A stretch of DNA of 64,000 bases from Hymenobacter monticola (GTDB taxonomy: Bacteria > Bacteroidota > Bacteroidia > Cytophagales > Hymenobacteraceae): positions 5,022,001 to 5,086,000 of the forward strand of contig NZ_CP094534.1 of the NCBI RefSeq assembly GCF_022811645.1. Direction: 5' to 3'. Position 1 is the first letter of the stretch. The number at the start of each line of letters is the position of its first letter. Shown here one piece after another: positions 23,802 through 41,620 of this stretch. The notes beneath the pieces were generated by a model, which did no database searches, was not told the origin of the DNA, and worked only from the letters and a program-made list of their open reading frames with translations. Made by a program: the position numbers and the translations under genes.

Positions 23802-25178
23802 CTAATACACCCGCTCCGATTCCGGCGTCGGTACCACCGCTCCGGGCGCCGTTTCGCGGCGGAAGCGCAGCAGCAGCACCCCGGCCACGATGGTGAGCCC
23901 CAGCAATAGCCCCACCCACACGCCCGGCGCGCCCCAGTGCAGCCGGAAGCCCAGTACGTAGCCCAGCGGCAAGGCCACCGCCCAGTAAGCCAACAGCGCC
24001 ACCACCGAGGGCACCTTCACGTCTTCAAGCCCCCGCAGGGCGCCCAGGCCCACCACCTGCAAGCCGTCCGACACCTGAAACAGGGCCGCGATGAGCAGCA
24101 GCGTGGCCGCCTGCGCCACCACGGCCGGGTCGTGGCTGTAGAGCAGCGGTGCCACTTGCCGCGTGGCCACAAACAGCAGCCCCATTGTGCCCATAAAGGC
24201 AAACGCCAGCCCGTAGGCCGCAAAGCCCGCCTGCCGCGCCTCGGCCAAGTGGCCGCTGCCCTGCAGGTTGCCCACCCGAATGGTGGCCGCTGCCGCAATG
24301 CCGCTGGCGGCCATGTAGGTGAACGAAGCCAGGTTGATGGCCACCTGATGGGCGGCCAGGGTGGTGGCGCCCAGCCAGCCTATCATGATGGCCGAGGCGG
24401 CGAACGCGCCCACCTCAAAAGCCATCTGCACGCCGATGGGCGCGCCCAGGTCGAAGAGGCGGCGCAGGGTGGCGGCATCGGGCAGCCAGCGGCCCACGGC
24501 GGCGCGGTATTCGTGCAGGCGCTGGGCCAGCAGCACGTAGCCGGCCATGAGCCCGGCCATGAGGATGCGCGCCGCCAGCGTGGCCCAGGCCGAGCCCATC
24601 AGCCCCATAGCCGGCGCCCCCCAGTGGCCAAACACGAGGGCGTAGCACAGGGCGGCGTTCACCACGTTGGCCAGCACCGACAGCCACATGGCCTGCCGCG
24701 TCAGCCCCAGCCCCTCGGCAAATTCGCGGAAGCCCTGGAACACCATCAGCGGCAGCAAGGACCAGCTGATGACCCGTACCCAGGGCGCGGCCATCGTCAC
24801 CACTTCGGGCGACTGGCCCAAGTAGTGCAGCAGCGAAGGCACCACCTGCCCCACCCCCGCCAGCACCAGCCCGGCCAGCGTGCACAGCCACACCGAGGAA
24901 GCCAGCAGCCGGCCCAGGTCGGGCAGGTCGCGCCGGCCGTGGGCGGCGGCTACCAGCGGCACGCTGCCCATGCTCAGGCCAATGCCCAGTATCATCAGCA
25001 CCGTGGTGCTGCTCACGCCCAGGCTCACGGCCGCCAGCGGCACCGTGCCCGTGCGCCCCACCAGCACCGAATCGACGAAGCTGACCGAGATGTGGCCCAG
25101 CTGCGACAGTACCACTGGGTAGGCCAGCAACACAGTAGGCCGCAGGTGCGGGCGGATATTTTCAAACGTCTTTCCCAT
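23802..25178 (-). CDS. MATE family multidrug/toxin exporter (NorM-like)
   Basis: 458 residues from ATG 25178. Twelve hydrophobic segments form two homologous halves, beginning with the MATE opening LAYPVVLSQLGHISVSFVDS and VLVGRTGTVPLAAVS. The second half has LGAPIGVQMAFEVGAF and LAAHQVAINLASF. It is an inner-membrane antiporter driven by Na+ or H+. The frame extends upstream to 25310, but that part translates a 21-bp DNA repeat (RF-x-TT units) and follows a promoter box, so it is not coding. Regulation through the repeat array is possible. Confidence 0.93.
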   Translation of the reverse strand: MGKTFENIRPHLRPTVLLAYPVVLSQLGHISVSFVDSVLVGRTGTVPLAAVSLGVSSTTVLMILGIGLSMGSVPLVAAAHGRRDLPDLGRLLASSVWLCTLAGLVLAGVGQVVPSLLHYLGQSPEVVTMAAPWVRVISWSLLPLMVFQGFREFAEGLGLTRQAMWLSVLANVVNAALCYALVFGHWGAPAMGLMGSAWATLAARILMAGLMAGYVLLAQRLHEYRAAVGRWLPDAATLRRLFDLGAPIGVQMAFEVGAFAASAIMIGWLGATTLAAHQVAINLASFTYMAASGIAAAATIRVGNLQGSGHLAEARQAGFAAYGLAFAFMGTMGLLFVATRQVAPLLYSHDPAVVAQAATLLLIAALFQVSDGLQVVGLGALRGLEDVKVPSVVALLAYWAVALPLGYVLGFRLHWGAPGVWVGLLLGLTIVAGVLLLRFRRETAPGAVVPTPESERVY

Positions 25179-25192
25179 AAATTTTAGCCTCG

Positions 25193-25200
25193 CAAAGGTA
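25193..25200 (-). promoter_or_regulatory. -7 promoter box (TACCTTTG) of the MATE gene
   Basis: Consensus TAnnTTTG 14 nt before the MATE start. The -33 region would fall inside the first units of the 21-bp array that begins at 25202. Confidence 0.6.
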
Positions 25201-25201
25201 C

Positions 25202-25390
25202 GGCGAGCGGTTCCGCACCGGTTCCGGGTGGTTCGGAACCGGCTCAGAGTGGTGTTGAACCGGTGGGGAGTGGTTCCGAACCGGTCACGAGTGGTTTCAA
25301 ACCGGTGCATAGTGGTTCGGAACCGGTCGCAAGTGGTTCGGAACCGGTCTGGGGTGGATTGAAACTACTCCCAACCGGTTCCGAACCACT
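25202..25390. repeat. Array of nine 21-bp palindrome-containing units
   Basis: Exactly nine units of 21 bp, ending at 25222, 25243 and so on to 25390. The consensus is nnnnAGTGGTTCGGAACCGGT, whose core GGTTCGGAACC is a palindrome. The eighth unit is degenerate and the ninth is in inverted orientation. The array fills all the DNA between the MATE promoter and the stop codon of the aminotransferase. Confidence 0.93.
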
Positions 25391-26509
25391 TTACCTCAAT
25401 TGGGAAGCAAATAACTTCTGTAGCCGCGCCAGCGCTTCATGCAGCGCCGCTTCCTCCACAGCATAAGACAGCCGTACAAAGCCCGGCGCGCCGCAGGTGG
25501 CCCCGTCCACCACCTCCACCCCGGCCGCAGCCAGTCGCTGCACGAGTTGCGCTGAGGCTTCGGGCGCTGGCAATTCGGGAGCGAGCAAGCGGGTGAAATC
25601 GGCGAATGCGTAGTAAGTGCCTTCGGGGGCGACACTCTTAGGCGCGTCAGGCAGGGCGGCCAGTCCTTCGAATAGCCGCTGCCGGTTAGGTGCCAGCTGG
25701 GCGCACAGCGCGGCCCCGATTTCCTCGGCGTGGCGGGTGGCGGCCAGCGCCGCCATCTGGGCCGGCACCGGCACGGCCGCGCCGGTGGCAAACAGCCGGG
25801 CCGTCACCGCCTCGGCCAGCGCGGGCGGGGCCACCAGGCAGCCCACGCCCCACCCCGCCAGCGCCAGCGACTTCGAAAAGCCGCTCACTATCACGTGCCG
25901 CCCGCGCGGGTCGGGCAAGGCCAGCAAGGTGGGCAACGCCTCTGGCCCAAAGCTGATGCCCTCGTAAATCTCGTCGCTCAACACCCAAAGCTCCGGAAAG
26001 TCGGCCGTCACGGCCAGCAGGTCCGCCCATTCGGCCCGCGAATACACGCGCCCGGTCGGGTTGTTGGGGTTGCTGATGAGGAGCAGCCGGGTGGCCGGCG
26101 TGAGGGCGGCGCGTAGCGTGGCGGGCGTGAGGGCGTAGTTGTCGGCCGCTGCCAGCGGCAGGGTGCGGAGCGTGCCGCCGGCCCGGCGCACCAGCTCCCA
26201 AAAGCCAAACCAATTGGGCGTGGGCAGCAGCACCTCGTCGCCGGGCCGTAGCATCTCGCTGAGCAAGGCAAACAGGCCGGTTTTGGCTCCGTTGGTCACC
26301 ACTACCTGCTCGGCACTGACGCTGGCCGCGCCGCGCTGGCGGTAGCGCTCCGCCAAAGCTTCGCGCAAGGCGGGCAGGCCCGCCGCCGGGCTCACGGCCA
26401 AGGGGCCCAGCTGCTGTTGGGCACCGGCTAGCACCTGCGTAGCCGCTGCCAACGCCACTTCGGGCACTGCAAAATTTCCGTAGCCAGAAGCCAGGCTGAT
26501 GAGGTCCAT
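25391..26509 (-). CDS. PLP-dependent class I/II aminotransferase linked to egtD
   Basis: 372 residues from ATG 26509 (an ATG at 26551 would add 14 residues encoded by an inverted repeat). Fold-type I motifs: VTNGAKTGLFALL (cofactor phosphate loop), ISNPNNPTGRV, the Asp in VLSDEIYE and the Schiff-base Lys in SGFSKSLALAGWG, with Arg in FVRLSYA. The gene follows egtD closely on the same strand, with only the inverted repeat between. An aspartate/aromatic aminotransferase role is the default reading. The location suggests it might supply the PLP C-S lyase step of ergothioneine synthesis, which is inference. Confidence 0.88.
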   Translation of the reverse strand: MDLISLASGYGNFAVPEVALAAATQVLAGAQQQLGPLAVSPAAGLPALREALAERYRQRGAASVSAEQVVVTNGAKTGLFALLSEMLRPGDEVLLPTPNWFGFWELVRRAGGTLRTLPLAAADNYALTPATLRAALTPATRLLLISNPNNPTGRVYSRAEWADLLAVTADFPELWVLSDEIYEGISFGPEALPTLLALPDPRGRHVIVSGFSKSLALAGWGVGCLVAPPALAEAVTARLFATGAAVPVPAQMAALAATRHAEEIGAALCAQLAPNRQRLFEGLAALPDAPKSVAPEGTYYAFADFTRLLAPELPAPEASAQLVQRLAAAGVEVVDGATCGAPGFVRLSYAVEEAALHEALARLQKLFASQLR

Positions 26510-26513
26510 GCTT

Positions 26514-26582
26514 TGAGTTATTTGAGTGAAGAGTTGGATGGCGTCTGTCATCCAACTCTTAACTCTTTACTCCTAACTCCTC
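26514..26582. repeat. Inverted repeat across the egtD/aminotransferase junction (family E)
   Basis: GAGTTGGATG...CATCCAACTC arms with flanking ACTC-rich tracts. The right arm encodes the last codons and stop of egtD, and the left arm runs into the upstream part of the aminotransferase frame. Confidence 0.75.
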
Positions 26583-27551
26583 TCTAGCCAGCACCACGTC
26601 GGCGAAATCGCCGGCCGCATCGGTGAAGGACGTTACCACCTGCAAGCCGACCTCAGCGGCCAGCGCTTCAATCTGGGGCATCGTGAACTTGAAGGAATTT
26701 TCGGTGTGAATGACCTCCCAGGCAGCGAAATCGACGGTTTCTTCCAAGGCGGCAAAGTGCACCTGCTGAGCCCGGGCACTCACCAGGAAGGAGCGCACGG
26801 CCCCGCTCAGCGGGCTGTAGTCGGTGTAGTGCTGCCAGTGGGCCAGGTCAAAATCGGCGCCCAGCTCGCGGTTGAGGCGGGTGAGCAGGTTCAGGTTGAA
26901 CGCGGCCGTGACGCCCTGCGCGTCGTCGTAAGCCGCCCGGATGCGGCGCGGGTCTTTCTGCAGGTCGAAGCCGATGAGCAGGCGGTCGGCGGGGCCCAGC
27001 GGGGCGGCCAGCTGGCGCAGGAAATTCAGCCGCTCGCCCGGGCCGAAGTTGCCGACGTTGGAGCCCAGAAACAGCACGGCCTTAGTGCCCGCCCATGTGC
27101 GCAGCTGGGTGAGGGCCGTGGCGTAGTCTTCCACCACCGGCGCCACGCGCAGGGCGGGCAGCTCCCGGCGCAGCGTCTCGACCAGCCCTGTCATGGCGCC
27201 CGCCGAAATATCCACCGGCGCATACGTAAACGCGGCGTTGCCTTGCAGCAGCTCGCGCAGCAGCAGCTTGGTTTTGGTGCCGTCGCCCGCGCCCAGCTCC
27301 ACCAGCGAGAAATCGGGGCTGCCGGCCGGGCTCAGGGCCGCCGCCAGCGCCGCGCCGTGCTGCTGGAAAATGGCCGCCTCGGCCCGCGTGGGGTAATATT
27401 CCGGCAAGTCCATGATTTGCTGGAACAAGCGGCTGCCCGCGTCGTCGTAGAAATACATCGACGACAACGTTTTGGGCGTTTTGCGCAGGCCGGCGGCCAC
27501 GTGTTGGGCTAGCTCGCTTGCGGCCGGATTCAGGATGGATGGTTGGGACAT
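26559..27551 (-). CDS. egtD: L-histidine N-alpha-methyltransferase EgtD
   Basis: 330 residues, typical length. It makes hercynine (trimethylhistidine) from His and three SAM in the first step of ergothioneine synthesis. Signatures: SSMYFYDDAGSRLFQQI, LPEYYPTRAE (about 49-58), the SAM-binding ELGAGDGTKT (85-94), VDISAGAM, FLGSNVGNF, LIGFDLQKD and the C-terminal IHTENSFKF that binds substrate. Cytosolic. It lies downstream of egtB with a family A palindrome between them. The last codons come from a repeat. Confidence 0.95.
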   Translation of the reverse strand: MSQPSILNPAASELAQHVAAGLRKTPKTLSSMYFYDDAGSRLFQQIMDLPEYYPTRAEAAIFQQHGAALAAALSPAGSPDFSLVELGAGDGTKTKLLLRELLQGNAAFTYAPVDISAGAMTGLVETLRRELPALRVAPVVEDYATALTQLRTWAGTKAVLFLGSNVGNFGPGERLNFLRQLAAPLGPADRLLIGFDLQKDPRRIRAAYDDAQGVTAAFNLNLLTRLNRELGADFDLAHWQHYTDYSPLSGAVRSFLVSARAQQVHFAALEETVDFAAWEVIHTENSFKFTMPQIEALAAEVGLQVVTSFTDAAGDFADVVLAREELGVKS

Positions 27552-27575
27552 AATCGGAACAGGTCATTCAAAACC

Positions 27576-27673
27576 CGTCATGCAGAGCGCAGCGAAGCAT
27601 CTCGCGTGCTTAAGTAAACCAATCGATTGAATCACCATCGCAAGCGAGATGCTTCGCTGCGCTCTGCATGACG
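27576..27673. repeat. Palindromic element, family A (copy 5)
   Basis: Near-perfect arms CGTCATGCAGAGCGCAGCGA and reverse complement around a spacer of about 35 nt. It sits between egtB and egtD, where it would form a strong hairpin in a shared mRNA. Confidence 0.92.
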
Positions 27674-27686
27674 TTCTTACTGCAGC

Positions 27687-28985
27687 CTAGCGCGCCAGCC
27701 GGATGCCGGAAAACTGCCAGCGCTTGTCGGCATGAAAAAAATTGCGGTAGCTCACACGAATGTGGCTTTCGGGCGTGACGCAGGAGCCGCCGCGCAGCAC
27801 CAGCTGGTTCACCATAAACTTGCCGTTGTACTCGCCCAGGGCCCCGGCGGCGCGCTCGTAGCCCGGGTAGGCGTGGTAGGCCGAGTAGGTCCACTCCCAG
27901 CATTCGCCCAGCAGCTGGTGGCACTGCGCGGGGTCGGCGTCGGCGGGCAGCGGCTGGGGGTCGAAGCGCTGGCTTTCCAGCCAAGTACCGCCGGCGGGCG
28001 TGGCGCCGAAGTGGCGGGCCGCCGTTTCCCATTCGGCCTCGGTGGGAAGGCGGGCTCCTGCCCAGTAGGCATAGGCGTCTGCCTCGTAGAAGCTGACGTG
28101 CGTGACGGGCGCGGCCGGGTTCACGGGCTGCAGGCCGTGGTGCGTGAAGCGGTACCAGGCGCCGTCGCGCTGCATCCAGTACAGCGGCGCTTCCCAGCCC
28201 TCGGCCTGGGCCAAATCCCAGCCCTCGCCCATCCAATAGCGGAAGTCGCGGTAGCCGCCGGCTTCCATGAAGGCCAGGTATTCGCCGTTGGTCACCAGCC
28301 GGTTTTGCAACTCAAATGGGGCCACCAGCACGTCGTGGGCCGCCAGCTCGTTATCAAAGCAAAATCCCTCTTCCTGAAACCCAATGCGGTAAATGCCGCC
28401 CGGCACGGGTAGCCAGGAAGCTGTTGATTCTGCAGGGGCTTTGGTTTCAACGCTTAACCCATTCAGGTACGCCGGTGCCAGCGGGCTGGTACTGAGGATG
28501 TATTTAATGTCGGTAGCCAGCAGTTCCTGGTGCTGCTGCTCGTGTTGCAGGCCCAGCTCCACCAGCTCATAGAACGCGGCAGGAAGGTCGTCGGCGTGGT
28601 TGAGCAGGGCGGCCATGGCCTCGTCGACGTGGGCGCGGTAGGCCAGCACGTCGGCCAGGGGCGGGCGCGAGAGCGTGCCCCGGTCGGCCCGGTTCACGCG
28701 CGAGCCCAGGGAGTTATAATAGGAGTTGAACAGGAAAGCGTAGTCGGGGTGAAAGAGCTGGTAGCCGGGGGCATACTCCTTCAGCAGAAACGTTTCCCAG
28801 AACCAGGTGGTGTGGGCCAGGTGCCACTTGGGCGGGCTCACGTCGAGCATGGGCTGCACCACCGTGTCTTCGGGCAGCAGCGGGGCGCACAGGGCCTGGC
28901 TTTGGGCGCGCACCGCCTGGTAGCGGGCCGGCCAGGGCGAAACGGCCGCACGGGGAGCAGCCAGGGAAGCAGGGGCTTGGGACAT
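27687..28985 (-). CDS. egtB: Ergothioneine sulfoxide synthase EgtB
   Basis: 432 residues. An N-terminal DinB-like domain carries the iron ligands (WHLAHTTW, H55/H58 region; HEQQHQE, H148 and H152), and a C-terminal formylglycine-enzyme-like domain ends in RGGSCVTP, SYRNFF and WQFSGIRLA. It is a non-haem iron enzyme that joins hercynine to a thiol (gamma-Glu-Cys or Cys) with O2. Cytosolic. No egtA or egtC gene is in the window, so direct use of cysteine is possible. First gene of the leftward egtB-egtD-aminotransferase run. Confidence 0.94.
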   Translation of the reverse strand: MSQAPASLAAPRAAVSPWPARYQAVRAQSQALCAPLLPEDTVVQPMLDVSPPKWHLAHTTWFWETFLLKEYAPGYQLFHPDYAFLFNSYYNSLGSRVNRADRGTLSRPPLADVLAYRAHVDEAMAALLNHADDLPAAFYELVELGLQHEQQHQELLATDIKYILSTSPLAPAYLNGLSVETKAPAESTASWLPVPGGIYRIGFQEEGFCFDNELAAHDVLVAPFELQNRLVTNGEYLAFMEAGGYRDFRYWMGEGWDLAQAEGWEAPLYWMQRDGAWYRFTHHGLQPVNPAAPVTHVSFYEADAYAYWAGARLPTEAEWETAARHFGATPAGGTWLESQRFDPQPLPADADPAQCHQLLGECWEWTYSAYHAYPGYERAAGALGEYNGKFMVNQLVLRGGSCVTPESHIRVSYRNFFHADKRWQFSGIRLAR

Positions 28986-40950: not shown

Positions 40951-41403
40951 TTACAGCGCGATTTCGGGCTTGGGGTGCTCGCCTTCCTGGCCGTCTTCGT
41001 TCACGGGCTTGGTCACGGCTTCGGCGTCGTCGAAAGCGTTGGCGTTGGCGGCGGTTTTGTCGCCGGCCACCACTTCTTTCACTTTGTCAACGGCGTCGCT
41101 CACCAGGTGCGAAGCTTTCTCTACCACTTCGGAGTGCGAAACGGCGTCAGCTACGTCGGCAGCCACTTCTTTCACCTTGTCAACGGCGGCGCTGGCGGCG
41201 TGCTTCACCGTGTCCAGGAGGCTACCGGTTTCGGCTTTAGCTTCGGCCGAGGCCGGGGCAGCGGTGCTGAAGCGCGACTTCAGCTCTTCCAAATCCACGT
41301 TCTTCAGCACGGGCGTGCGAAGCAGGTTTTTGATGATGTTCTGCTTGTTGTTGGCACGGGCAATGTTCTTGCGGTGCTTGCGCTTCAGACGGGTAACGGA
41401 CAT
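40951..41403 (-). CDS. Basic small-protein paralogue with LEA-like helical extension
   Basis: 150 residues from ATG 41403. Residues 1-45 (MSVTRLKRKHRKNIARANNK and on to SRF) are identical to the whole conserved part of the 52-aa gene next to it. Residues about 60-125 add amphipathic segments such as AAVDKVKEVAADVADAVS, repeated once, like LEA or YtxH-type stress proteins. The acidic tail ends EHPKPEIAL. Cytosolic, no catalytic motif. It arose by tandem duplication plus fusion or extension. Confidence 0.8.
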   Translation of the reverse strand: MSVTRLKRKHRKNIARANNKQNIIKNLLRTPVLKNVDLEELKSRFSTAAPASAEAKAETGSLLDTVKHAASAAVDKVKEVAADVADAVSHSEVVEKASHLVSDAVDKVKEVVAGDKTAANANAFDDAEAVTKPVNEDGQEGEHPKPEIAL

Positions 41404-41425
41404 GGCGGTTGGCGAAAAGGAGAAT

Positions 41426-41584
41426 TTATTCGGTGATGGCAACGGCGCTAAAGCGCGACTTCAGCTCCTCGAGGTCCACATTTTTGAGGACGGGCGTGCG
41501 GAGCAGGTTTTTGATGATGTTTTGCTTGTTGTTGGCGCGGGCAATGTTTTTGCGGTGCTTGCGCTTCAGACGGGTAACGGACAT
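41426..41584 (-). CDS. 52-aa highly basic small protein
   Basis: Begins MSVTRLKRKHRKNIARANNK and ends ELKSRFSAVAITE, with 12 Lys/Arg in the first 31 residues. Its first 45 residues match the next gene exactly, although the DNA differs at many third positions, so both copies are under protein-level selection. Probably binds nucleic acid or the ribosome, by composition only. A -7 box at 41621-41628 serves the pair. Confidence 0.8.
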   Translation of the reverse strand: MSVTRLKRKHRKNIARANNKQNIIKNLLRTPVLKNVDLEELKSRFSAVAITE

Positions 41585-41620
41585 GGCCGGAAAAAAATCT
41601 AGGTCTTACGAAATGGAGGG

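Follow-up and report, generated by a model that had tools for sequence, protein, structure and literature searches.

In the window, a 64,000-nucleotide stretch of the Hymenobacter monticola genome, the gap between the stop codon of a class I/II aminotransferase gene and the TACCTTTG box of a MATE-family exporter gene is filled by a tandem array of nine units with a period of exactly 21 bp (Table 1). We take TACCTTTG to be a counterpart of the -7 box of Bacteroidota promoters. An earlier note on this DNA had described nine exact palindromic units in fixed 21-bp phase beside a -7 box, with the last unit inverted. The geometry, the box abutting the array on the minus strand and the inversion of the ninth unit all hold, as do the number of units and the period, and the dyad arms are conserved. 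The copies are inexact, however: GGTTCGGAACC occurs, on either strand, five times within the array and one unit is degenerate. The motif GGT-N5-ACC is kept in eight of the nine units, and the 4-nt linkers and the five bases within the dyad vary among them. Autocorrelation also recovered the period without any motif (match fraction 0.75), and chance is excluded, as no array of any period arose when all the surveyed sequences were resampled under a first-order Markov model. The minus-strand RNA of the array folds with z = -7.2 against 200 dinucleotide shuffles. A search for terminator-like sites at the array found none, and Rfam at gathering score gave no match in the window. The methyltransferase and sulfatase/DinB genes listed in Table 1 resemble EgtD and EgtB of ergothioneine synthesis.

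Table 1. Positions of the features at the exporter locus, elsewhere in the window and at other loci
Feature	Sequence	Positions	Strand	Remark
MATE-family exporter gene	window	23802-25181	-	Pfam MatE; start about 25181; downstream of the array
TACCTTTG, -7-box-like	window	25195-25202	-	abuts the array; visible on reading in orthologous gaps, whether or not these have an array
Eight direct 21-bp units	window	25202-25369	-	minus-strand core ACCGGT-N5-ACCACT plus 4-nt linker
Degenerate unit among the eight direct ones	window	25349-25369		
Ninth unit	window	25370-25390	+	inverted relative to the other eight
Whole array	window	25202-25390		
Long imperfect predicted hairpin	window	25331-25391	-	formed by the inverted, the degenerate and the following direct unit, immediately behind the aminotransferase stop
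Class I/II aminotransferase gene	window	25391-26551	-	stop codon 25391-25393 touches the array
Histidine-specific methyltransferase and FGE-sulfatase/DinB genes	window	26559-28985		beside the aminotransferase gene; Pfam
181-bp segment, tandemly duplicated	window	41257-41587		1.8 copies, 90% matches
Second-class array	G082:C11	74046-74245		
MKQG gene remnant (L210)	G082:C11	74342-74437		31 residues, 61% identical
Further 21-bp array	L211	4545-4792		
Further 21-bp array	L221	14637-14836		
Further 21-bp array	L223	13235-13350		
Further 21-bp array	L226	14401-14752		
Further 21-bp array	L269	7602-7819		
Further 21-bp array	L270	10260-10602		
Eighteen similar 21-bp units, ACGGGTGTAATACCTTAATGC	L200	2772-3149		
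Long heptamer array, GTGTTTG/GTGTTGG	L224	1454-1711		

Arrays with the same core, which we call type A, occur at other loci in the genus. A pattern of two units, three mismatches allowed, matched in 22 of 120 Hymenobacter genomes, that of the window included; a reversed control pattern also matched singly or doubly in a number of genomes, so isolated single matches mean little. By reading of the fetched stretches, 11 genomes hold clear type-A arrays, and four (G029, G064, G089 and G108) hold short arrays of two or three type-A-like units. A looser three-unit pattern matched in 24 of the 120 genomes of the genus and, among 390 genomes of the order, in 21; the control gave matches of similar size in many genomes. 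Multi-match arrays stand out in this search and include a neighbouring genus (G358). In a comparison of 20 arrays (140 units), the six GGT/ACC positions show the same base in 94-99% of units; the five bases between them vary, and conservation of the linker is only loose. A second class, CGCGGT-N5-ACCGCG, is present in G060, G067 and G082. At L133, L143 and L144 (G064, G108 and G029), two or three type-A units lie, by eye, inside a larger, MITE-like inverted repeat, which sits between pullulanase and histidine kinase genes.

Twelve of 23 array loci carry a gene for a small helical protein (MKQGNRIS...), whose family we name NRI, with MKQG as a subfamily; the array often lies at most 20 nt from the gene's stop, gene calls around the arrays being heuristic. 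The NRI protein has about 160 residues, is predicted to be all-helical with one helix of 53-55 residues, and has a tail that appears basic by eye. The family has no significant match in Pfam, NCBIfam or PADLOC. Searches with 11 NRI proteins brought up four Pfam models, with one member each at E 0.063 or worse and none a transposase, no PADLOC match at E 0.1, and weak PHROG matches for single members only. The L131 protein has no Pfam transposase match either, and no convincing PDB fold was found for the NRI protein. In the collection searched, the family comprises 1884 proteins at E <= 0.001. Its gene is present in 46 of the 120 Hymenobacter genomes; an alignment search of 395 genomes sampled from the whole phylum Bacteroidota found it in 31. 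The MKQG gene (61% identity or more) occurs in 12 of the 120.

The coupling of array and gene was measured at 59 Bacteroidota NRI loci (L287-L317 and L320-L347, two duplicates removed; mainly the best place of the best-scoring genomes), 32 from Hymenobacteraceae and 27 from elsewhere, which are related, so that the counts are not independent events. The strongest of lags 12-39 was taken in the 500 bp behind and before each gene, with a strict floor of 0.57. Lag 21 was strongest and at or above the floor behind the gene at 36 of the 59 loci and before it at none of the 59; with no floor the figures were 42 and 4, and 36 of 3000 random 500-bp Hymenobacter pieces passed. The passing loci come from eight families, with 25 of 32 in Hymenobacteraceae and 11 of 27 in the others (seven families). 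The MKQG subfamily was the entry point through which the family was found, and 10 of its 12 loci pass; without these 12, 26 of 47 do (15 of 20 in Hymenobacteraceae, 11 of 27 in the others). The other 23 loci fail the strict criterion, among them L332, with a period of 22. In a second batch of 20 stretches with 18 NRI genes, lag 21 came out on top in 16 of the 18, with the overlap that L366 re-reads the L298 locus and that the arrays of L351 and L367 were already known from the pattern search. In G082, the MKQG gene remnant adjoins the second-class array of Table 1, as if the gene had decayed and the array stayed.

The repeat sequence is wholly different between gene copies, as in CCGACG-N5-CGTCGG (L350), AGTC-N5-GACT (L328) and TGAAC-NN-GTTCA (L323), but of the 39 gene-linked arrays with five or more units, 26 are palindromic beyond what column shuffling yields. 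Among orthologous type-A units, 8 of 144 GGT/ACC positions had changed, 22 of 144 outer bases and 77 of 216 inner and linker positions (GGT/ACC against inner plus linker, Fisher 4e-12, three independent pairs pooled), and some of this apparent conservation could result from gene conversion among the units. On the gene's strand, the 26 palindromic arrays hold 107 G-U cells against 42 A-C cells; counted by array, 18 lean to G-U, 4 to A-C and 4 are tied (p 0.004), a ratio that becomes 13:4 (p 0.05) without five related type-A arrays. The gene's strand also gives the better fold in 28 of 39 arrays (p 0.006; 29 of 39 by 42-nt windows); with type A left out, it does so in 24 of 33 (p 0.02). RNA hairpins are thus slightly favoured by the sequence features, namely the G-U excess and the strand bias of folding, although strand-biased mutation could produce the same lean, the G-U excess included (mean G+T 0.535). 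A terminator-like hairpin precedes the second unit in 10 of the 28 gene-linked arrays that start at least 40 nt after the stop; these hairpins are awkward for an RNA role, as is array L129 of G061, which, by eye, has two divergent -7-like boxes flanking it. Rfam at gathering score gave no match in 20 loci.

The period of 21 also emerged where no motif was supplied. Autocorrelation over the window and 800 kb of four genomes returned 17 arrays, nine of them with period 21; four of the nine were known beforehand, three of the stretches having been taken from contigs that bear them, and one of the five newly found (L227) looks coding. When the threshold was lowered and six genomes were added, three of them Hymenobacter, the search returned 44 arrays, coding ones included, 13 of them with period 21. 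Of 13 period-21 arrays checked for the family gene, 12 had none found in their own stretch. G082, G061 and G358 hold further 21-bp arrays of unrelated sequence, with no NRI gene found in the 20-kb stretch. The eighteen-unit array of L200 belongs to G348, from another family of the order, where no NRI gene was found in the 6-kb stretch. The heptamer array of L224 (G061) is of a different, 7-bp repeat kind.

Since no NRI gene was found adjoining the array in the window, we call it a solo copy; with its period of 21 and its dyad core it belongs to type A. Its genome has no MKQG gene and a single NRI member, 26% identical and about 1.9 Mb away, with a different array. The profile of the window array is closest to MKQG-linked arrays (0.68-0.70) and unlike the one array that adjoins an NRI gene in the same genome (0.39). 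The six clear solo copies of type A are nearer to MKQG-linked arrays (best 0.68-0.79) than to the arrays of their genomes' other NRI members, and five of the six genomes have an MKQG gene. With the four short-array genomes added, the count becomes 6 of 10; among these four, only G108 combines a short copy with an MKQG gene. Given the MKQG-like profile, and the MKQG gene present in most genomes with solo arrays and absent from this one, we read the array as a detached copy that outlived its partner. It is now probably no more than a relic, or at best it passively keeps two transcription units apart; the latter is the mildest guess at a present role.

Arrays of this kind have a common period, dyad units, coupling to a gene in several Bacteroidota families and unequal conservation within the unit. 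The reading that we prefer, with a probability of about 0.6, is that the window array is a detached member of a family of 21-bp palindromic arrays that is at home behind NRI genes. Gene and array would form a cassette of constant period and variable repeat sequence, in which the partner NRI protein may bind a regularly spaced series of similar units, and copies of the array could move to other sites or outlive the gene. We tentatively suppose that the row behind the genes is read as RNA, in the form of successive short hairpins encoded on the same strand as the gene; the main alternative level, DNA dyad sites two helical turns apart, is possible but less probable. More broadly, and at somewhat below even odds, we propose a hitherto undescribed two-part system of Bacteroidota, made up of a small helical protein and a 3' row of 21-nt hairpin or dyad units. 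The sequence of the units would evolve freely with each gene copy, with period and palindrome maintained. The protein would read the row by its geometry or by a co-evolving motif, and solo rows would be further targets or relics. The conservation of GGT/ACC in the exporter array of the window, although the MKQG gene is absent, counts against the preferred reading of a detached member, as do the 23 loci that fail the strict criterion, the period-21 arrays with no family gene found in their stretch and the short type-A-like arrays in genomes without an MKQG gene. In an incomplete literature search no title described such a gene-array system, which does not establish its absence from print. A spacing that is kept across several bacterial families amid complete change of the repeat sequence is unusual and points to a reader of spacing. 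The link to an array gives the uncharacterised NRI family a physical partner, so that its function becomes testable, and it cautions against reading such arrays as promoter operators. From the window by itself, this tie to a protein family elsewhere in the genome was invisible.

An operator is what the earlier note had proposed, with a dimeric regulator on the nine dyads controlling the adjacent exporter promoter. We fetched 80 loci of exporter relatives, 43 of them with the aminotransferase gene upstream, and read at most the last 300 bases of each gap, with whole-locus autocorrelation run besides. Arrays of the same class abut the same box in only two of the 43 orthologous gaps, with 6 units in Hymenobacter sp. 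CA1UV-4 and 15 in H. ruricola, and one more gap (strain M29) holds a vestigial unit; autocorrelation gave non-coding lag 21 at 0.56 or more in the same two loci and in two repeat stretches of distant loci. In H. properus, the closest relative (97%), the gap has the -7 box and, of the array, only the last half unit. Because of this distribution, the array probably predates the divergence of the three species that carry it and is probably dispensable for the exporter promoter. The equal spacing of box and array in the three species, the conserved dyads and the position of L129 speak for an operator, which the absence from most orthologous gaps, the change in unit number (9, 6 and 15) and the arrays of the same core at unrelated, often 3', sites nevertheless make unlikely; the last is the distribution that the earlier note had itself said would speak against its proposal. 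For the iteron set that it also named, no replication or partition gene was seen among the four neighbouring genes scanned. The neutral minisatellite that the note had allowed for, here taken as one grown by slippage in a tolerant gap with an incidental period of 21, would suit the varying unit number, the array's span of the whole gap from stop codon to -7 box, and the other repeat elements in the same gap of relatives. We think it quite unlikely, since GGT/ACC is conserved relative to the inner and linker bases of orthologous units and since period 21 recurs behind one gene family with unrelated sequences. The gaps of L050, L056 and L090 carry other inverted-repeat elements, as if this were a landing site.

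Because 21 nt equal seven codons, the array might instead encode heptapeptide repeats, and a minus-strand frame in phase with the exporter does stay open through part of it, just as a gene in G022 reads into its own array. Variable positions in all three codon phases, nearly invariant G5, T6, A12 and C14, and a TGA in another frame of the window array make this highly improbable. RAYT transposases are thought to mobilise or multiply REPs, and by analogy the NRI protein might mobilise or multiply its array. The palindromic units, their 3' locations, the sharing of a genome by gene-linked and solo type-A arrays in five of six cases, and the type-A units within larger inverted repeats would accord with such a mobile repeat; we nonetheless consider it doubtful, given proteins without a Pfam transposase match and tandem arrays of fixed period, few per genome.

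Type III toxin-antitoxin systems (ToxIN) have units of about 35 nt, arrayed ahead of the toxin gene. Like them, the proposed NRI cassette pairs a gene for a small protein with tandemly repeated structured units, but here the array follows the gene, its units have 21 nt, and a strong lag 21 lies upstream at none of 59 loci; moreover, the predicted all-helical protein has no known toxin or defence domain, as judged from 11 proteins with Pfam and PADLOC. Iterons and ParB/parS-type arrays are likewise rows of dyad sites near a small-protein gene, whereas NRI arrays are chromosomal, multi-copy and variable in sequence, and an unsystematic look showed no replication or ParA gene. REP/RAYT elements (PMC3733652) share with NRI arrays short palindromic units, mostly 3' intergenic positions, a linked gene and further genomic copies, and differ from their long tandem rows of fixed 21-bp period, found at few loci and with a sequence of their own in each copy. 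The Y1 tyrosine transposase that marks REP/RAYT systems was not found by Pfam among the 11 NRI proteins searched. BrickBuilt, a minisatellite-MITE of Porphyromonas gingivalis, is similarly an intergenic tandem repeat of a Bacteroidota species at several loci per genome (PMC4596501); it has a 23-nt unit within a MITE with leader and tail, and its abstract names no partner gene. Its period of 23 nt sets it apart from the arrays described here, with their 21 nt, and from L332, with its 22.
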